Source: Dolichospermum flos-aquae CCAP 1403/13F (GTDB lineage: Bacteria; Cyanobacteriota; Cyanobacteriia; Cyanobacteriales; Nostocaceae). From it: DNA of 64,000 nt. Shown here in pieces: positions 3,448 through 62,092 of this stretch. A model generated the notes under the pieces. That model did no database searches, was not told the origin of the DNA, and saw only the letters and a list, made by a program, of their open reading frames with translations. Position 1 is the stretch's first letter. Every line of letters begins with the position of its first letter. Made by a program: the position numbers and the translations under genes. The DNA is taken from the NCBI RefSeq assembly GCF_012516395.1, contig NZ_CP051206.1, positions 310,001-374,000 of the forward strand. The letters run 5' to 3'.

Positions 3448-3852
3448 TTAAGGTGCTTGTGTGGCAATTGCTAATCTTGCTCCTTTTACCTGCCGCACCC
3501 GATCCATCACTACCACGACTTGACCATGAGTAGCACTTTGATCAGCATTAATAATCACTACCACTTCCGTATTTTTGCCCATTAATTCCTGTACCTTTAC
3601 TGGTAAAGTTTCCAGAGTTACTGGCTGGCGATTTAAACTCACATTCCCTGCTGAATCTACAGTAACGGTAATTGGTGCGGCTAATGATTGGGCTTTGGCT
3701 GTTGCTGCTTTAGGTAAATTAACTGGCAACTCTTCAGAACGATGTAAAAATAAAGTGGACATAATAAAAAATGTCAAAATCGCAAAAATGACATCAATCA
3801 TCGGCACAATATTAATCTGGGCTGGTAAATCTGGTTCATCTGGTAGACGCAT
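3448..3852 (-). CDS. exbD: ExbD/TolR-type biopolymer transport protein
   Basis: This is the 134-aa partner of the ExbB proton channel that energises outer-membrane transport. It has one N-terminal membrane helix (about residues 17-36, VPMIDVIFAILTFFIMSTLF) with the essential Asp at position 24, then a periplasmic domain ending in MDRVRQVKGARLAIAT. Its ATG overlaps the ExbB stop by one base (TAATG), which points to translational coupling. No TonB or TonB-dependent receptor is seen nearby, so the transported substrate is unknown. Confidence 0.93.
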   Translation of the reverse strand: MRLPDEPDLPAQINIVPMIDVIFAILTFFIMSTLFLHRSEELPVNLPKAATAKAQSLAAPITVTVDSAGNVSLNRQPVTLETLPVKVQELMGKNTEVVVIINADQSATHGQVVVVMDRVRQVKGARLAIATQAP

Positions 3853-4490
3853 TATGATTTATCCCCTCTTTCATACTGGTGACGATAAACTAATTCTAAT
3901 TGCCCACCATATTCTTGAATCCAGGCAATTTGTCGTAAATACATTCCCCGAAAGCTATTCGCAAAAAACAAGGTAATAATAGCTACAACTAGTCCCGATG
4001 CTGTGGATACTAAGGCTTCACTAATCCCAGAAGTGACACCAGCGGTTTTTGTACTACCGACATCACCAATATTTAATGATGCAAAAGAGCCAATTAAACC
4101 CAAAACTGTCCCTAATAATCCCAGCAAGGGAGCTAAACCAATAATTGTATCAAAAATATTTTGAAACCTTTTTAATAACGGGATTTCTGCCTGGGCCTCA
4201 CTTTCTAAAGCCAAGCGGAATTCCTCTGGGTTGGGTTCTTCCAATTCTAAAGCCGCCAGAAAAATTCGCGCAATCGGTAAATCAGCATTTTTGTGTAGTA
4301 TATCTAGAGAGGTAACTACATTACCTTGACGATAAAAACTTAACACCTGCTTGACTACGCGATTCTGACGGCCACTAATTCCTATCCAAAACGTAATCCG
4401 TTCCAGAATGAGAGTGATTCCTAAAACCGAGAAAAATAGCAGTGGCCACATAACTACGCCACCGGCTTTGAATAAGTTACTAATTTCCAT
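3852..4490 (-). CDS. exbB: ExbB/MotA/TolQ-family proton channel protein
   Basis: The 212-aa protein has three hydrophobic segments in the usual order: one near residues 12-32, and two long helices in the C-terminal half containing GLAPLLGLLGTVLGLIGSF and the final ALVSTASGLVVAIITLFF. The conserved Thr/Gly-rich pore segments of the family are present. It is the first gene of a two-gene operon with exbD. Together they would form an inner-membrane proton-driven motor, in cyanobacteria most likely for siderophore or metal uptake (inference). Confidence 0.93.
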   Translation of the reverse strand: MEISNLFKAGGVVMWPLLFFSVLGITLILERITFWIGISGRQNRVVKQVLSFYRQGNVVTSLDILHKNADLPIARIFLAALELEEPNPEEFRLALESEAQAEIPLLKRFQNIFDTIIGLAPLLGLLGTVLGLIGSFASLNIGDVGSTKTAGVTSGISEALVSTASGLVVAIITLFFANSFRGMYLRQIAWIQEYGGQLELVYRHQYERGDKS

Positions 4491-7848: not shown

Positions 7849-9054
7849 ATGATAGTTCTAGAGTATAAAGTCAAGGGTAAACAGCATCAATATAACGCGA
7901 TAGATGATGCAATTCGGACTACTCAATTCGTTCGCAATAAAGCGATTAGGTATTGGATGGATGCACCACGTGAACTAAAAGTTGATAAGTTTGCCCTGAA
8001 TAAATACTCTACTGAACTTCGGAAAGAATTTCCTTTTACTGCTGAGTTAAACTCAATGGCTGTGCAATCAGCCGCAGAAAGAGGATGGTTTGCTATATCA
8101 AGGTTTTACGACAACTGTAAATCTAAAAAGTCTGGTAAAAAGGGATTCCCCCGTTTTCAAAAAGATTGCCGTTCCGTTGAATATAAAACATCAGGGTGGA
8201 AGCTACATAAAACAAAGCGACGCATCACTTTTACCGACAAGAAAGAGATTGGTGAACTCAAATTATTAGGCAAATGGGATATTCAATCCTACGAACTTAA
8301 AGACATTAAACGAGTGCGCTTAATCCGTCGTGCAGATGGATATTATGCTCAGGTTTGTATCGGCATTGATGTTGTAGATATTCAACCGAAAACGGGTAAT
8401 GAAATCGGATTAGATGTTGGTATTGAGTCGTTTTACACTGACTCTAACGGACATCATGAACCTAACCCTAAGTTTTTGAGAAAGGCTGAAAAATCAATCA
8501 AACATTCTCAAAGACGGATTTACAAAAAGCATAAAGGTTCTAGTTGCAGAAAAAAAGCTAGAAAACTTTATGCCAAAAAGCACTTAAAAGTAAGTAGGCA
8601 ACGTATAGAACACGCTAAGAGAATAGCGCGTTGCGTAGTCAAATCTAACGATTTAGTCGCCTACGAAGATTTAAGGGTTTCAAATATGGTAAAAAATCAT
8701 TGTTTAGCAAAATCAATTAGTGATGCTAGTTGGTATTTGTTCCGACAATGGATTGAATATTTTGCTGTTAAATTTGACAAGATTGCTATAGCTGTTACTC
8801 CACACTATACTTCTCAAAAGTGTTCTAGTTGTGGCGTAATTGTCAAAAAATCTCTATCAACTCGCACTCATAATTGTAGTTGTGGATCGTATCTTCACAG
8901 AGATACAAATGCAGCAATTAATATTTTAAATCTTGCAAAAGCTAGGGGAGGGCATCCCCAAAGTAACGCTACAGGAGTTGAAGCCACTACTCTACTTGGT
9001 GCAAGCCTGGTTGAGCAAGTTTTGACGATGAATGTAGAATCCCCTCGGCTTTAG
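7849..9054 (+). CDS. tnpB: TnpB RNA-guided endonuclease (IS200/IS605 OrfB, IS1341-like), full length
   Basis: TnpB proteins are RNA-guided DNA nucleases encoded by IS200/IS605-type elements, and ancestors of Cas12. This 401-aa copy looks complete. It has an N-terminal helical/OB region, the RuvC-I Asp in EIGLDVGIESF (about residue 187), the RuvC-II Glu in VAYEDLRVSNM, a zinc finger with CSSCG...CSCG (about residues 324-343), and the RuvC-III Asp in HRDTNAAINI. No TnpA transposase is nearby, so it is a solo tnpB. A RHH gene lies divergently upstream, and the element's right-end hairpin follows the stop immediately. The C-terminal tail after residue 360 overlaps the likely guide-RNA region. Confidence 0.93.
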   Translation: MIVLEYKVKGKQHQYNAIDDAIRTTQFVRNKAIRYWMDAPRELKVDKFALNKYSTELRKEFPFTAELNSMAVQSAAERGWFAISRFYDNCKSKKSGKKGFPRFQKDCRSVEYKTSGWKLHKTKRRITFTDKKEIGELKLLGKWDIQSYELKDIKRVRLIRRADGYYAQVCIGIDVVDIQPKTGNEIGLDVGIESFYTDSNGHHEPNPKFLRKAEKSIKHSQRRIYKKHKGSSCRKKARKLYAKKHLKVSRQRIEHAKRIARCVVKSNDLVAYEDLRVSNMVKNHCLAKSISDASWYLFRQWIEYFAVKFDKIAIAVTPHYTSQKCSSCGVIVKKSLSTRTHNCSCGSYLHRDTNAAINILNLAKARGGHPQSNATGVEATTLLGASLVEQVLTMNVESPRL

Positions 9055-9069
9055 CCAGGGGAGTGTCAA
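9026..9069 (+). mobile_element. Right end of the TnpB element (guide-RNA 3' region)
   Basis: The sequence GTAGAATCCCCTCGGCTTTAG and onward folds into a hairpin (CCCCT/GGCT against AGCC/AGGGG) and ends GGGAGTGTCAA, the typical right end of cyanobacterial IS200/IS605-type elements. In studied TnpB systems the guide (omega/re) RNA covers the 3' end of tnpB and this end, and its guide is the flanking DNA. Here the guide would start at about 9069 with AATTTTGAGTATAG. This RNA is inferred by analogy. Confidence 0.6.
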
Positions 9070-10512: not shown

Positions 10513-10615
10513 ATTTTACATTGAAAATTACCCACTCTTAATGCTTATCCCCACCAGATAACCGTCATATTGCAATTGTAAATTACCCCAATTCCCAATT
10601 AAAGCTACCAACTAT

Positions 10616-10944
10616 CTTTGACACTCTCAGCGGCTTTAGCCACTGAGATTCTACTGACAGAATTAGATTAAGGATTTAGCCCAATCCAATCTCGCTGCGA
10701 CCGCCAAACGTCGCCTAGACGCTCAAAACAACTGCCAATCAAGGTGTCGAAATTGCGCTTACTTTTATTGTTTTCAGAATCCATCACTAAGCCAAGACTC
10801 GGTACGCTCCACACCCTGCCATTACTCGCTCTTTCTTGTCAATACTGCCGTTAGGACTTGAACCTAACAGTTATTTCATAGGAGCCAGGATTTCTCCGTA
10901 CTAGGATGCTTCAACACATAGATGTTTTTTATTCTTACTCACAA
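10616..10944 (-). ncRNA. HEARO/omega-RNA-like structured element, copy 1
   Basis: A 329-bp noncoding unit that recurs at 45602-45938 (plus strand) with high identity and a few small indels. On the minus strand it starts TTGTGAGTAAGAA, contains a tRNA-like T-loop hairpin (stem GTTAGG/CCTAAC closing TTCAAGT), a conserved core with GGAGCGTACCGAGTCTTGGC, and ends with a right-end hairpin (CTCAGTGGCT/AGCCGCTGAG) and GAGTGTCAAAG, as in IS200/IS605 elements. No frame is kept between the copies. It resembles the HEARO class, the guide RNA of IscB nucleases, as I recall it. No iscB is nearby. The class assignment needs a covariance-model search. Confidence 0.55.
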
Positions 10945-18939: not shown

Positions 18940-19155
18940 TTGTCTGATCTGAGAAAGTTTATCTTTTTTAATGTTGCTAACTTTTTAGAGGATATTTGTA
19001 CAAAATATATTTTACCTGCTTTGGTGCGTTCAGGGTGGGATATCACCAAGCAAGTCCGAGAACAGGTATATTTTACTGATGGTTGGATTTATGTTCAAGG
19101 GAATCAAACACGCCGGGGAAAGGCGAAAAAAGCCGATTATATTCTTTTGGACTAG
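18940..19155 (+). pseudogene. Type I restriction enzyme R subunit (HsdR), N-terminal fragment
   Basis: The 71-codon frame encodes a segment FLEDICTKYILPALVRSGWD and ends GNQTRRGKAKKADYILLD, which resembles the first 70 residues of HsdR-type proteins (the ADYIL stretch is part of the nuclease fold). It then meets a stop, and the remaining nuclease and helicase are absent. The only start is a TTG. An IS200/IS605-type right end follows directly, which suggests that a transposon-related deletion removed the rest. Confidence 0.55.
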
Positions 19156-19229
19156 ATAACGCCAGGATTCTGGTTTAAGTGGCCTCGTTGAACCAGGAAT
19201 CCCAGTGTCTTTAGACCGGGGAGTGTCAA
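19156..19229 (+). mobile_element. IS200/IS605-type right-end remnant
   Basis: The sequence GGAATCCCAGTGTCTTTAGA followed by CCGGGGAGTGTCAA (about 19194-19228) matches the right-end pattern seen after the full tnpB at 9026-9069 (GAATCCC, hairpin, GGGGAGTGTCAA). Upstream bases resemble the 3' end of a tnpB gene but keep no frame. It abuts the broken HsdR fragment. Confidence 0.6.
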
Positions 19230-38927: not shown

Positions 38928-39061
38928 GAGGGTGTTTAAAAAGTTATGATTGATGTATCAAATATTTTTAACCCCACCCTAACCCTCCCCTTGTTAAGGG
39001 GAGGGAACTGGATTTTCTGGTTTCCCCCATTTCCAAGGGGGGACTAAGGGGGGTAATTTAA
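38928..39061 (+). mobile_element. Truncated MITE (one terminal repeat)
   Basis: It begins TTA + GAGGGTGTTTAAAAAGT, close to the terminal repeat of the MITEs at 24001 and 50339. The interior has ccctccccttgttaaggggaggg and ccccccttagt-type hairpins. The second terminal repeat is lost where the left end of a TnpB element (39066) begins. Confidence 0.55.
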
Positions 39062-39065
39062 TTAC

Positions 39066-39180
39066 AGAAGTATCCGGTAAGCGTAAAGCTCAGTGGCTTC
39101 AGCCCTGAGATATAAGCGACACGAGCGGTCTTAACCGCCTTAAATCTTGTACCGCTAAATATCTTGACAATCTTACACCA
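39066..39180 (+). mobile_element. Left end of the second TnpB element
   Basis: Directly after a TTAC tetranucleotide (39062-39065) comes TATCCGGTAAGCGTAAAGCT, a hairpin (CTCAG...CTGAG), and ATATAAGCGACACGAG. The same left end occurs at 45507 after TTAT. IS200/IS605-type elements insert 3' of such TTAY tetramers, so this marks the element boundary. Confidence 0.7.
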
Positions 39181-39212
39181 TGAAGAGTAGTATAAGGTTG
39201 GAGGTAAAAGCG

Positions 39213-40121
39213 ATGCTAGTTTTTGAGTTCAAAACTTACGGGAAATCGGTTCAATTTAGCGCAGTAGATGATGCAATTCGCACCGCTCAATTCGTTCGGA
39301 ATAGCTGTATTCGGCTATGGATGGACGTAAAAGATACGGGCAAAAACGACTTGCAGAAATATTGCGCTGTTTTGGCGGCTAATTTTCCATTCGCTAATGA
39401 ACTTAACTCAATGGCACGACAAGCCAGTGCCGAACGAGCATGGTCTTCTATTTCTCGGTTTTACGATAACTGTAAAAAGAATATTCCTGGATTAAAGGGA
39501 TATCCTCAGTTTCAAAAAGACTGCCGTTCTGTCGAATACAAAACATCAGGATGGAAGCTTTCAGAAGATCGTAAATCTATCACATTCACTGATAAAAAAG
39601 GTATTGGTAGATTAAAGATCAAAGGGACTCGTGATTTGCATTTTTATCAAATAAATCAAATTAAACGAGTTAGGTTAGTCAAACGGGCTGATGGCTATTA
39701 TTGTCAGTTTTGCATTGATGTTAATCGCCAAGAAGATATAACTCCATCAGGAAATACAGTTGGATTAGATATAGGCTTGAAAGAATACTACACTGACTCC
39801 AATGGTGTGATGATTGAGAATCCTAAATTTCTGCGTATTGGAGAAAAGATTCTTAAACGTTCACAACGTCGTGCTTCCAGAAAAGTCAAAGGTTCAAAAA
39901 ATAGAGGCAAAGCTAGACAGATTTTAGGTAAACGCCACCTCAAAATAAGTAGGAAACGTAAAGACCATGCTGTGAAATTAGCACGGTGCGTAGTTCAGTC
40001 AAACGACTTGATATCCTACGAAGATTTGAGAATTAAAAATATGGTGAAAAATCATTGTTTAGCCAAGTCTATTAACGACGCATCTTGGTATCAGTTTCGT
40101 GTCCAGGGGAAACGCATCTAA
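39213..40121 (+). pseudogene. tnpB: TnpB, truncated by an ISAs1-type insertion
   Basis: The start is ATG 39213, preceded by a GGAGG ribosome-binding site at 39199-39203; an ATG at 39180 in frame is less likely. The frame matches the full TnpB at 7849 through SWYQFR (about residue 297), including the RuvC-I Asp (VGLDIGLKEY) and RuvC-II Glu (SYEDLRI). It then passes into the end of an insertion sequence at 40104, adding QGKRI and a stop. The zinc finger, third catalytic Asp, right end and guide-RNA region are all lost, so it cannot be an active nuclease. Confidence 0.88.
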
Positions 40122-41710
40122 ATTATCTTGACAGAATACTATATTAGTGCATCAATATGGGAAAATATCTAACTTCATTCAAAATCTGATAAATTCCTTT
40201 ATTAAAATTATAAAAATTTCATAAATTTAGAGTAAGTATTTATTTTTAATGATGGATTTATTTTGTTCAGTTCTATATATTAATATCTATATTTTTTGGC
40301 ATCAAAAATATAGATTCTATTGTAGAATCAACAGAAAAATAAATTGGTTATATTTATATTTGTCTATATTTTCTGATTTTTATCAGATACATTCTAAAAT
40401 CTTCTCTAAATATTCATCATCCCATCCTGCACAAAACTGCTTACTTTTAGTTCCTAGTTTTTGGCTTTTTTCTTTTCCTAAAAGATTAACTGCTATATGA
40501 CGAATAACTGCAAAGTTTTGTGGTGCATTATCCTTTCTTATCCGACAATCATCTTCTCTAAAAGCTACATCTAAAACCCAGTGTAATGAATTCTCTATAC
40601 CCCAATGAGTGCGGACTGATTCTCCTAGTAATTTCGCATTATTTGTCAAACTACTTATATAATAGCCTGTCTCAACCTTCGTTTTTCCATTAACTTTTCG
40701 TATATATTCTACCATTCCTACACTTTGAAGATTTACCCATTTCTTATCAGTATCTATTCTTTCTTCTATGTCTGATAACATGAGATAATGACGAATCTCT
40801 TCTCTTCCATGTTTGTCTTCTTTTGTATGAAATTCACTATATTTGAATCCCTCAAACCCTTTAGATATAGCTTCTTTGAAGATTTCTTCTACATTCTTAT
40901 ATAAATTACCTTGATTCTTTTTGAGTGCGATAATATATTCGCCTGATTTTTCTGCAATTGATTTTACTATCTCTTTTTGACACCCCATCGCATCAATCGT
41001 TACTAAACATCCGGCTATATCTAATACTTTAATTAATTCCGGTATGGCTGTTATTTCATTTGACTTTTCTTCTACTTTACATTGTCCTAATACTAATTTA
41101 TTACTAGTTGCCCATGCACTTACCATGTGAATCGCACCTTTATCCTTTCCTTTATCATATGAATGCCTTAATGTTTTCCCATCTATTGCTATGACTTCTC
41201 CTTCTGTAATTTTATTGATAGATTTTATCCAACTCAAAAAACAATTCTGAAATTGTTGCGGATCTATTCTCGCAAATACTCTGGCGAATGTATCATGAGA
41301 TGGAATCCCGTTTGGAAGTTCTAAAAATTGTTTTAGCCATTTTTCTTTCTTTTTTCCATAAGCCTCCATCAATACCCAACTATCTACTCCACAGATCACT
41401 GCACAAATCGCAATGGTTACTATATCTATTAATTTATGCCTTTTTGTTCTCTCAACTCTTTTATCTTCTAAATCTTTAAAGTGATCTACTATTGTGATTT
41501 TTGGTGGTAGCTTCATTTTGTGAATTTTGTCTCTTTAGTTTTATTGAGAATACCACTTCAACTCATTTTATTGATTCTTATAGAAACGAATTTACCATCA
41601 AATTTTCTTCATACTCATTTATTGGCTTGATATTAACATGGTAATACTGCCCTTTTTATCTATTCATAGAAGTTACATTTTGTCAAAAAAAATTAGATGC
41701 GTTTCCCCTG
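40104..41710. mobile_element. Complete ISAs1-type insertion sequence (1607 bp)
   Basis: The ends are inverted repeats of 30 bp (27 match), each starting CAGGGGAAACGCATCTAA and ending TTGACA (40104-40133 and 41681-41710). A single intact transposase gene lies inside on the minus strand. The DNA on the two sides shows no target-site duplication: the left flank is tnpB and the right flank is a TPR gene. The element therefore marks a rearranged junction. The 250-bp stretch 40134-40382 inside it shows no gene. Confidence 0.9.
40383..41516 (-). CDS. ISAs1-family transposase (complete)
   Basis: The 377-aa DDE transposase has an N-terminal DDE_Tnp_1-associated domain (about 5-90: DHFKDLEDKRVERTKRHKLI). 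The catalytic residues appear in VIAIDGKTLRHSYD, LVTIDAMGCQKEI and the Glu of the VLDVAFREDDCRIRKDNAP segment. The family C-terminus NFAVIRHIAVNLL is present. It appears intact and could be active. It is the only complete transposase of the DDE type in the window and is related to the deleted copy at 62130-62684. Confidence 0.93.
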   Translation of the reverse strand: MKLPPKITIVDHFKDLEDKRVERTKRHKLIDIVTIAICAVICGVDSWVLMEAYGKKKEKWLKQFLELPNGIPSHDTFARVFARIDPQQFQNCFLSWIKSINKITEGEVIAIDGKTLRHSYDKGKDKGAIHMVSAWATSNKLVLGQCKVEEKSNEITAIPELIKVLDIAGCLVTIDAMGCQKEIVKSIAEKSGEYIIALKKNQGNLYKNVEEIFKEAISKGFEGFKYSEFHTKEDKHGREEIRHYLMLSDIEERIDTDKKWVNLQSVGMVEYIRKVNGKTKVETGYYISSLTNNAKLLGESVRTHWGIENSLHWVLDVAFREDDCRIRKDNAPQNFAVIRHIAVNLLGKEKSQKLGTKSKQFCAGWDDEYLEKILECI

Positions 41711-44569: not shown

Positions 44570-45508
44570 ATGGTTTTTTTTAATCAAGATCAACAACTAG
44601 AAAATATCGGTAATCAAATTGTAGAGGCAACTTGGGCAGAGTTTCCCACTTTAGCAGCAAATCAAATTGCTTTGACTTGGGTTGTCTATGATCCTCCCGC
44701 ACCAGTTAATACAGGTGGTGCGCTGACTCCTAACGCTTTTTGGGAACATCCGGTGCGGGGTTTTAGCTATCGGGGAGGAGAACGGATTTATCCGGCCAGT
44801 GTGGTGAAGTTATTTTATTTGGTGGTGGTGCAAGAATGGCTAGAAAAAGGTATGAGTCAAACTTCGGGGGAATTAAACCGGGCTTTGACGGATATGATCG
44901 TTGATTCTAGTAATGATGCTACCAGTTTAATTGTGGATATCATCAGTGGGACTACTTCTGGTCCGCTGTTAAGTCCTGGTCCTTTTGAAACTTGGAAATA
45001 TCAACGCAATATTATTAATCGCTATTACCAGTCCTTGGGGTGGGAGGAAATGCAAGCAATTAATGTCTGTCAAAAAACCTGGGGTGATGGTCCCTATGGC
45101 CGGGAAAGGGCTTTTTATGGGGAGATGTTTGAAAATCGGAATATGGTGACGACGGATGCCACTGCGAGATTATTACATAGTATCGTGGGTGGGGTGACGG
45201 TTTCTAGTGAGCGATCGCAATCTATGATGAATTTAATCAAACGTAATATTAACCCTGATGACTTACCCCAAGATGTGGAAGAAGACCAGGTTACAGGCTT
45301 CTTAGGCGGTGGATTACCTCAAAATAGTCAAATCTGGTCAAAAGCAGGTTGGACAAGCACAGTCCGCCATGATGCGGCTTATATTGAACTACCAGATCAA
45401 CGTCCTTATCTGTTGGTGGTGTTTACGGAAGGGAAAGCACAAGCTAAGAGTCGGGAAATTTTACCTTTTGTGTCTGGAAGAATTGCAGAAGCGATCGCTA
45501 ATTTATAA
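44570..45508 (+). CDS. Serine hydrolase of the class A beta-lactamase fold
   Basis: The 312-aa protein has the acyl-enzyme motif in YPASVVKLFYL (SxxK, about residues 77-80), an SxN motif in VDSSNDATSLI (about 122), and a KAG in place of KTG in WSKAGWTST (about 261). It has no signal peptide, which is unusual for a periplasmic beta-lactamase, so a cytosolic peptidase or esterase-like role is possible. The stop codon TAA (45506-45508) coincides with the TTAT insertion site of the following mobile left end, so its C-terminus could have been reshaped. Confidence 0.8.
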   Translation: MVFFNQDQQLENIGNQIVEATWAEFPTLAANQIALTWVVYDPPAPVNTGGALTPNAFWEHPVRGFSYRGGERIYPASVVKLFYLVVVQEWLEKGMSQTSGELNRALTDMIVDSSNDATSLIVDIISGTTSGPLLSPGPFETWKYQRNIINRYYQSLGWEEMQAINVCQKTWGDGPYGRERAFYGEMFENRNMVTTDATARLLHSIVGGVTVSSERSQSMMNLIKRNINPDDLPQDVEEDQVTGFLGGGLPQNSQIWSKAGWTSTVRHDAAYIELPDQRPYLLVVFTEGKAQAKSREILPFVSGRIAEAIANL

Positions 45509-45598
45509 GAGCATCCGGTAAGCGTAAAACGAGCGCGGCTTGGCTCCCTGAGATATAAGCGACACGAGGGATTTTAATCCCTGTGGTATGTTAGAATT
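45507..45598 (+). mobile_element. IS200/IS605-type left end without a tnpB
   Basis: The sequence CATCCGGTAAGCGTAAAACG, a hairpin ending CCCTGAG and ATATAAGCGACACGAG repeat the left end found at 39066. It follows TTAT (45503-45506). A short inverted repeat (AGGGATTTTAATCCCT, 45567-45582) comes next. No tnpB follows; instead the HEARO-like element begins at 45602. Confidence 0.7.
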
Positions 45599-45601
45599 AA
45601 A

Positions 45602-45938
45602 TTGTGAGTAAGAACAAAAAACATCTATGTGTTAAAGCATCCTAGTACGGAGCAATCCCGGCTTCTATGAAACAACGGTTAGGTTCAAGTCCTAACGGCA
45701 GTATGACTTAAAAGAGCGAGTAATGGCAGGGTGTGGAGCGTACCGAGTCTTGGCTTAGTGATGGATTCTGAAAACATTGAAAACAATAAAAGTAAGCGCA
45801 ATTTCAACACCTTGATTGGCAGTTGTTTTGAGCGTCTAGGCGGCGTTTGGCGGTCGCAGCGAGATTGGATTGGGCTAAACCCTTAATCTAATTCTGTCAG
45901 TAGAATCTCAGTGGCTTGGCTCCCTGAGAGTGTCAAAG
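45602..45938 (+). ncRNA. HEARO/omega-RNA-like structured element, copy 2
   Basis: This 337-bp unit matches copy 1 (10616-10944) from TTGTGAGTAAGAA to GAGTGTCAAAG. Differences include several substitutions and a few short indels (for example an extra CATTGAAAA near 45775). Pairing is kept where bases differ: GGAG pairs with CTCC in copy 1 and with CTTC (G-T wobble) here. The right-end hairpin differs in its inner bases yet keeps CTCAG/CTGAG. It would be transcribed rightward. No nuclease gene follows; an amidase gene starts 41 bp later. Confidence 0.55.
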
Positions 45939-45978
45939 AATTGCAATTGCCGGGACTTAGCAACGGAAATAGGTAAAA

Positions 45979-61839: not shown

Positions 61840-61886
61840 TGGGTACGGCTGGACTCGAACCAGCGACCGTCCGCTTAGAAGGCAGA
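61840..61886 (-). tRNA. 3' fragment of a tRNA-Arg (anticodon UCU)
   Basis: The minus strand holds the last 47 nt of a tRNA: anticodon arm TCTGC-CTTCTAA-GCGGA (anticodon TCT), variable loop CGGTC, T-arm GCTGG-TTCGAGT-CCAGC, acceptor 3' strand CGTACCC and discriminator A. The D-arm and 5' acceptor strand are absent; upstream bases are AT-rich. It cannot be a working tRNA. Such 3' fragments are typical att footprints of integrases that target tRNA genes. Confidence 0.75.
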
Positions 61887-62092
61887 ATTTATTTATCTAA
61901 AACCCAGTGTTAGTAATGGTTTTGGCTACATCTAAAATAATTGATCTAATTTTGATCTACCCTATTAATGCTGTAATAATTTTTAACAAAGTTGTTCATA
62001 TTTGTAATGCCCACTAATCCTACACAACCTGTTTAGATTCTGATCTACCGTTAGCAACGGCAAATATAAAAGATTTTGAGTGGATAGAGGGT
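61887..62092. other. Noncoding stretch between tRNA fragment and ISAs1-type element
   Basis: AT-rich DNA with a GATCTAATTTTGATCTACC direct repeat (GATCTA at about 61940, 61951 and 62041). No gene is seen. Confidence 0.35.

Follow-up and report, generated by a model that had tools for sequence, protein, structure and literature searches.

Results

Two copies of a repeat without a reading frame

The window, by which we mean the whole stretch of 64,000 nucleotides of Dolichospermum flos-aquae DNA that was analysed, contains two copies of a repeat in inverted orientation to one another. Copy 2 is a complete non-autonomous element of 430 bp on the plus strand (45507..45936), delimited by an empty site and by other copies. 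Copy 1 is a 5'-truncated element on the minus strand (10618..10944) which, as alignments of the copies indicate, has kept the RNA core and the right end and is missing the left end and the promoter-like box. Its 5' RNA domain occupies 10769..10925 on that strand (R1, the model of this domain: 158.1 bits, E 6.8e-33), and its 3' RNA domain, a predicted scaffold of the TnpB omega-RNA type, occupies 10618..10767 (R2: 126.1 bits, E 1.3e-24); copy 1 is in the training set of both models. The 20 nt after GTGTCAA, at 10598..10617 on the minus strand, form the 3' flank in the putative guide position. No TGnTAnnAT box is found upstream of copy 1 (row L001), which is probably an inert or dead copy, lacking both left end and promoter box. 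A search of its flanks against congeners for an empty site gave no contiguous match. An open tnpB frame of 401 aa (7849-9054) lies 1.6 kb from copy 1.

The initial annotation had described a unit at 10616-10944 that is homologous over its full length to 45602-45938, inverted, and that keeps no reading frame. Both statements hold: 307 of 326 aligned bases are identical between the copies (E 5.5e-136 in a genome search), and, with all six frames considered, stop-free runs reach at most 64 aa in copy 1 and 65 aa in copy 2. The right edge of the unit requires a small correction, to 10618 in copy 1 and 45936 in copy 2, at GTGTCAA; the AG that follows is flank. The RNA strand is the minus strand in copy 1 and the plus strand in copy 2. 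The right-end hairpin, GTGTCAA and the GTTAGG/CCTAAC hairpin are all present as described. The last of these had been likened to a T-loop; its sequence, however, is not conserved among relatives (GTTAGA/TCTAAC, TCCAA/TTGGA and others), and we therefore drop the T-loop reading and regard it as a variable stem, placed at 45677..45696 (plus strand) in copy 2 by the alignment of relatives.

Copies were counted in the genome, as had been proposed. Searching the genome with copy 1 yields 22 matches, 9 of them near full length with copy 1 itself included; that is, copy 1 has 8 near-full-length relatives, and R1 finds the RNA core in 13 places. Four elements make up a second subfamily (B). Homology had been said to begin abruptly at TTGTGAG, as if the bases upstream were a variable guide. 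This is true of copy 1, but not of the other copies, which share sequence further upstream: a left extension of about 95 bases is common to copy 2 and six other copies and does not occur in copy 1, while a divergent copy at 4507900 has about 50 bases of it in common with copy 2. In a search with copy 2 and its flanks, the match to copy 1 stops where the left extension begins. Thus the apparent abrupt start, and with it the apparent variable 5' guide, arises because copy 1 lost its left end. Since complete copies share the sequence upstream of the RNA start, a guide in the 5' flank is ruled out.

Anatomy and insertion site of copy 2

The features of copy 2 all lie on the plus strand. To its left, as the empty site shows, stands TTAT (45503..45506), an insertion-site or TAM-like tetranucleotide. 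The left end (45507..45588), homologous to that of an IS605 element at G000:C1:3616301, includes the palindrome GGGATTTTAATCCC (45568-45581) and is followed by an extended -10-like box, TGTTAGAAT (45589..45597), whose support is the count of TAnnAT against shuffles given below. The RNA is predicted to start near GTGAGTAAG. The 5' RNA domain (45621..45776), recognised by helix counts and the R1 match, contains the nested helices CATC/GATG, TATGT/GCGTA, GCATCCT/AGGGTG+T and CGG/CCG. Its conserved core TCCTAGTACG (45639-45648) resembles what we take to be the sarcin-ricin stretch of 23S rRNA, a likeness that may be due to chance. The 3' RNA domain, the predicted TnpB omega-RNA-type scaffold, extends over 45787..45936 (R2: 127.6 bits, E 6.4e-25, copy 2 being in the model's own set). 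In a helix loop within it, TTGGC (45847..45851) pairs as helix 4, a pseudoknot, with GTCAA (45932..45936), the last bases of the element. The 3' flank in the putative guide position is 45937..45956; in congeners with an empty site, this stretch comes after TTTAT.

This empty site is present in 6 of 15 congeners, in which TTTAT is joined without a gap to the right flank; in the remaining 9 the two flanks of copy 2 do not match as a single stretch. Copy 2 was therefore inserted after TTAT without target duplication, in the manner of IS200/IS605 elements, a result that rests on this one copy. All eight subfamily-A copies that keep the left end begin after TTAT or TCAT. In both subfamilies of the genome GTGTCAA is the right end, with differing flanks directly after it. 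The insertion of copy 2 (45503-45508) falls within the stop codon of an upstream frame of 312 aa. This stop is TAG in four and TAA in two of the six empty sites, and TAA at copy 2, where it is rebuilt with the first bases of the element, so that the frame keeps its end.

Structure and covariation of the RNA

In a search of 199 related genomes (its own included) the element has a DNA match in 52, with three candidates scored per genome, so that copy numbers are lower bounds. Our alignment A1 comprises 33 sequences: 9 of the 13 copies from the genome itself, leaving out three near-identical copies and one nested copy, and 24 of 29 fetched relative loci, leaving out L128, L137, L139, L140 and L155. 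Of its 33 rows, 29 form the alignment of the 5' domain (A2) and 27 that of the 3' domain (A3).

Pairing is seen in 96.2% of cells of the 5' domain (29 sequences from 16 genera), as compared with a shuffled mean of 86.7%; both sides have changed in 14 of 21 pairs, and covariation is 0.364 versus 0.180 in shuffles. None of 500 shuffles is as high on four of the five measures; 'further pair types' are not above shuffles (168/500). In the 3' domain with its pseudoknot (27 sequences), 94.8% of cells are paired versus 82.4% when shuffled, changes on both sides occur in 19 of 26 pairs, covariation is 0.385 versus 0.183, and 0 of 500 shuffles are as high on any of the five measures. The pseudoknot, helix 4, has 96.3% of its cells paired, with both-side changes in one of five pairs: GTCAA of the element pairs with TTGAC or TTGGC, and relatives show TTGAT/ATCAA and, by eye, TTGAA/TTCAA. 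When the partner strand is slid by 1-3 columns, pairing falls to 33-49% in both domains. Since reading and scoring of the helices drew on the same alignments, these figures are supportive rather than independent.

G-U pairs account for 48 of 609 cells in the 5' domain and 75 of 678 in the 3' domain; because G-U would be A-C on the opposite strand, they support the stated RNA strand. The repeat is a structured RNA. A decayed protein gene is ruled out by the absence of a frame together with the compensatory changes.

The 3' domain and tnpB

R2, the model of the 3' domain, was run on 45 loci of the genome, 30 of which came from a tnpB search, and gave 28 matches at E <= 1. The best matches at tnpB (4.7e-15 and 2.1e-13) fall on two intact genes of the parental kind, 455-456 aa long; in both, the match covers the gene end and the right end, and one of the two belongs to an IS605 element with tnpA and tnpB whose two ends are homologous to those of our element. 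Genome-wide, R2 finds 66 places at E <= 0.1, headed by the 13 stand-alone copies, and it also matches places without an identified tnpB. Inside the window it overlaps, at 8958-9069, the 3' end of the 401-aa tnpB frame (E 1.7e-6), and there is a weak match at 19095-19229 (E 0.0075).

Because R2 matches the 3' ends of tnpB genes, and because the last five bases take part in the pseudoknot, we assign the RNA of the element to the TnpB omega-RNA type. Such an RNA would have its putative guide in the 3' flank after GTGTCAA, not in the 5' flank. The RNA overlaps no tnpB gene, the element having no frame, and we therefore do not call it a canonical reRNA. In ISDra2, the TnpB omega-RNA consists of a 116-nt scaffold, in which a pseudoknot joins bases -5 to -3 to a distant upstream segment, followed by a 16-nt guide (PMC10097598), and TnpB-bound RNA ends in about 16 nt of flank, the guide being taken from the 3' flank (PMC8612924). 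Reported lengths of processed TnpB RNAs are 79-466 nt, and one of about 330 nt would thus be compatible with a TnpB ligand.

Ends shared with an IS605 element and with HEARO elements

The left end of copy 2 matches the genome at 3616301 (74% identity, E 3.3e-7), and a right end at 3618229 has 79% identity to that of copy 2 (E 0.0011; R2 match 2.1e-13). The IS605 element at 3616301 carries a Y1 transposase gene (tnpA) on the minus strand, after which a tnpB of 456 aa lies on the plus strand. The stand-alone element and a tnpA-bearing IS605 element therefore have their ends in common, as befits a non-autonomous member. In 7 of the 30 tnpB loci read, GTGTCAA occurs no more than 120 nt past the stop codon. 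In the window, a left end of the same kind lies at 39069-39134; it is followed, within 39069-41516, by a 313-aa frame, by eye a shortened tnpB, and then by a 377-aa frame on the other strand, by eye another transposase. A subfamily-B element at L101 (~3700-4266) has its left end split by other sequence, which by eye is a repeat also found near window positions 38930-39050.

HEARO elements of the same genome have right ends which, when reverse-complemented, are homologous to the left end of copy 2. Four left-end matches in reverse complement lie beside HEARO places, and 7 of 8 HEARO elements read end in the reverse-complemented left-end sequence, next to TTATGA. One transposase may serve both the stand-alone elements and the HEARO elements. 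A reversed orientation of our element, its left end corresponding to HEARO right ends, is ruled out by the right ends of tnpB and by the structure counts.

The initial annotation had taken the repeat for a stand-alone, nuclease-less omega-RNA-like element with IS200/IS605-type ends, conserved structure and several copies, and had identified it as HEARO, the guide RNA of IscB. The former description stands; membership in HEARO does not. The Rfam model RF02033 gives no match on copy 2 at E <= 10 and none at gathering score on either copy. On the whole genome, up to E 10, it lists 21 places, 16 of them above the cut-off and neither copy among them. Of these 16, 14 are without an adjacent RRXRR hit and two are next to RRXRR (iscB); two further iscB genes adjoin sub-threshold HEARO matches. 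The genome has five RRXRR hits, none near either copy.

The 5' domain and its distribution

The 5' domain, about 155 nt long, is the second covarying domain of the RNA. In searches with three members at E <= 10 it matched no Rfam family (Rfam 15); the two distant members among the three gave three and five weak hits, none near the gathering score or to a plausible family. A tRNA-like match elsewhere in the window (61840-61905) scores 29.3 bits, just over the gathering score, and has a deviant 5' half. When R1 was run on the 45 loci, the sole strong match was a known stand-alone copy beside one tnpB, and the domain is absent from the tnpB-borne RNAs tested; matches at E 0.22-0.23 inside one tnpB family (four near-identical loci) were taken as chance. 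A TAnnAT motif precedes the RNA start by 5-12 nt in 58 of 65 loci, near-identical copies included, as compared with a shuffled mean of 4.03 and a maximum of 11; copy 1 is among the seven loci without the box.

An exact core pattern, searched over 84,980 species genomes, led to 53 named loci. All 53 stretches are cyanobacterial (Nostoc, Dolichospermum, Scytonema, Tolypothrix, Planktothrix, Microcoleus, Okeania and others), and 52 of them have an R1 match. The 3' domain follows 2-45 nt downstream of the 5' domain in 45 of these 52 and is not found at E <= 0.01 in seven. Of these seven, L258 yields a match at E 0.0037 when the search is smaller, and L226, L248 and L261 have the R1 match at or close to an edge of the stored sequence. 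A tnpB- or tnpA-like stretch occurs somewhere in 7 of the 52 loci, the nearest lying 219 nt from the 5' domain (L254) and, in two others, 909 nt. The element can thus neighbour tnpB; where both domains are found, there is no room for a tnpB between them. The core pattern has no exact match in viral_contigs. Searches of plasmid and phage collections gave one short partial match each.

Three loci have peculiarities of their own. At L301 (847-2673) a stand-alone element lies just before a parental-clade tnpB with its own right end, possibly a composite with two omega-RNAs. At L254 (3207-3683) a tnpB-like stretch of about 40 codons begins about 80 nt after the 3' domain of the stand-alone element. 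L237 (1992-2575), on a Nostoc contig, has two tandem matches to the 5' domain, the second of which is weak (E 0.00068).

Co-occurrence with a parental TnpB

Across 386 genomes of the phylum, 30 are R1-positive, all from one order; at most seven candidates were scored per genome, and copy numbers are therefore lower bounds. A parental TnpB at E <= 1e-60 is found in 26 of the 30 R1-positive genomes, versus 28 of the 356 R1-negative ones (at most four candidates per genome were scored in this search, and here too copy numbers are lower bounds), an association that is confounded by kinship and that fits dependence on TnpA alone equally well, since the same kind of element also brings TnpA. The other 4 of the 30 carriers have no parental TnpB at this threshold. 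The 14 genomes whose best E is under 1e-190, the close clade, are R1-positive without exception; this cut was set after inspection of the list, in which 8.9e-136 comes next.

In 14 aligned TnpBs of the parental kind, IDxG and ADxN are conserved, and there is a GWN with a conserved EExYTS further on. The GWN presumably stands where the RuvC-II glutamate is expected, and the active site of the parental TnpB may be rearranged; its activity is for this reason only putative. The Pfam TNB score of the parental TnpB is below the family cut-off.

Discussion

We consider it likely that copy 1 is a left-end-deleted, non-autonomous element of the IS200/IS605 type whose sole content is an RNA gene, and which belongs to elements that would borrow TnpA in order to move and TnpB in order to be retained. 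We infer that the RNA is transcribed and bound by TnpB, that cutting ensues, and that the element is mobilised in trans.

The steps are probably as follows. A complete copy has a left end of the TnpA type, followed by a promoter-like box and by a structured RNA of about 330 nt, the 3' end of which doubles as the right end of the element. The TnpA of a related autonomous element would excise and insert this copy in trans, after TTAT or TCAT. Excision would leave the TAM joined to the right flank, that is, a match for the guide of the RNA. A TnpB made elsewhere in the genome would take up the RNA and cut the empty donor site (TAM plus guide), and repair from a sister copy would restore the element. 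The extra 5' domain might confer stability, help to load TnpB in trans, or engage a second partner. Retention of an element through cutting of its empty site by TnpB is a published proposal (PMC8612924), which is here moved in trans.

In a wider reading, which is tentative and to which we give slightly less than even odds, filamentous cyanobacteria would harbour a family of transposons that consist of RNA genes only and make nothing but a TnpB guide RNA, one that acts in trans and has a new 5' domain. Such a family would parasitise both TnpA and TnpB, each insertion would reprogramme the guide, and the 5' domain would be an adaptor for loading a guide made away from tnpB or would recruit a second partner.

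The element could instead be an inert MITE or PATE, a remnant of an IS605 element that has lost tnpB, is spread by TnpA only, and whose RNA has no role. One PATE-like element has been described in which the right end and the final 58 nt of tnpB remain (PMC7290912), and ends common to a tnpA-bearing element may suffice for movement. Nonetheless, compensatory changes, in an alignment covering 16 genera, of a 5' domain absent from the tested tnpB-borne RNAs, are not expected of an inert remnant, and neither is a conserved promoter-like box; moreover, the G-U pairs in both domains favour an RNA of this strand over hairpins of single-stranded DNA. We therefore regard this explanation as unlikely.

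The RNA might also serve a dedicated effector (or TnpA) through its 5' domain and no longer guide TnpB, its omega-RNA part having been kept as a right end only. In the searches made, the 5' domain is peculiar to these elements and it is strongly conserved; the four carriers without parental TnpB at 1e-60 also speak for such an effector. We nevertheless think this quite improbable, since covariation in the 3' domain is not confined to the end hairpin but includes the inner helices, as if the scaffold were still in use. That the element is a stand-alone HEARO, with its guide at the 5' end and IscB as partner, is very improbable: stand-alone HEAROs do exist in this genome and their right ends are related to our left end, yet the HEARO model, searched up to E 10, matches neither copy, the 3' domain matches tnpB 3' ends, and the shared upstream sequence of complete copies leaves no room for a variable 5' guide.

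Read as a putative TnpB-type guide RNA, the element can be compared with known systems. With the TnpB omega-RNA or reRNA it shares a 3' domain homologous to tnpB 3' ends, a pseudoknot with the last scaffold bases, a right end that coincides with the 3' end of the RNA, a flank in the guide position, and TTAT or TCAT in the TAM position; published RNAs of this kind overlap tnpB, whereas that of the element stands alone behind its own promoter-like box, and its 5' domain of ~155 nt has no counterpart in the 116-nt scaffold of ISDra2. Like a PATE or type I MITE of the IS200/IS605 family, it has no ORF, has both ends in common with an autonomous element, and is inserted after a tetranucleotide without duplication; unlike these, it holds an RNA that is structured and conserved and includes its own special domain, with DNA-level matches in 52 of 199 related genomes. 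For one Anabaena genome, 147 MITEs are listed that do not evidently resemble the inverted repeats of the ISs present there (PMC3542288). Stand-alone HEARO (RF02033) is likewise a nuclease-less, mobile, guide-RNA-like element, in the same genome and with related transposon ends, but the HEARO model does not match our element, whose putative guide is at the other end of the RNA and whose partner would be TnpB instead of IscB. An IStron, too, has an RNA domain inside an IS605-type element, whereas the RNA described here comes after the left end and the promoter box; this identity is ruled out, no group I intron being matched in Rfam with three members at E <= 10.

The omega-RNA of IscB and TnpB is reportedly the subject of a 2021 paper, and a 2023 paper is said to concern TnpB and transposon retention. 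Among the literature matches listed, no title or abstract opening presents a stand-alone family of TnpB guide RNAs, although an earlier description is possible.

With a covariance model of the 5' domain, annotators could recognise a family for which our searches of Rfam 15 gave no match. The 430-bp element, with its clean empty sites in sister strains, offers a direct test case for TnpB-driven retention. Stand-alone guide RNAs have been described for IscB; if our interpretation is true, the guide of TnpB too can leave its nuclease gene, acquiring a promoter-like box of its own and an extra structured domain. This would bear on the proposal that the separate guide-RNA genes of Cas12 arose from such RNAs (PMC10097598).
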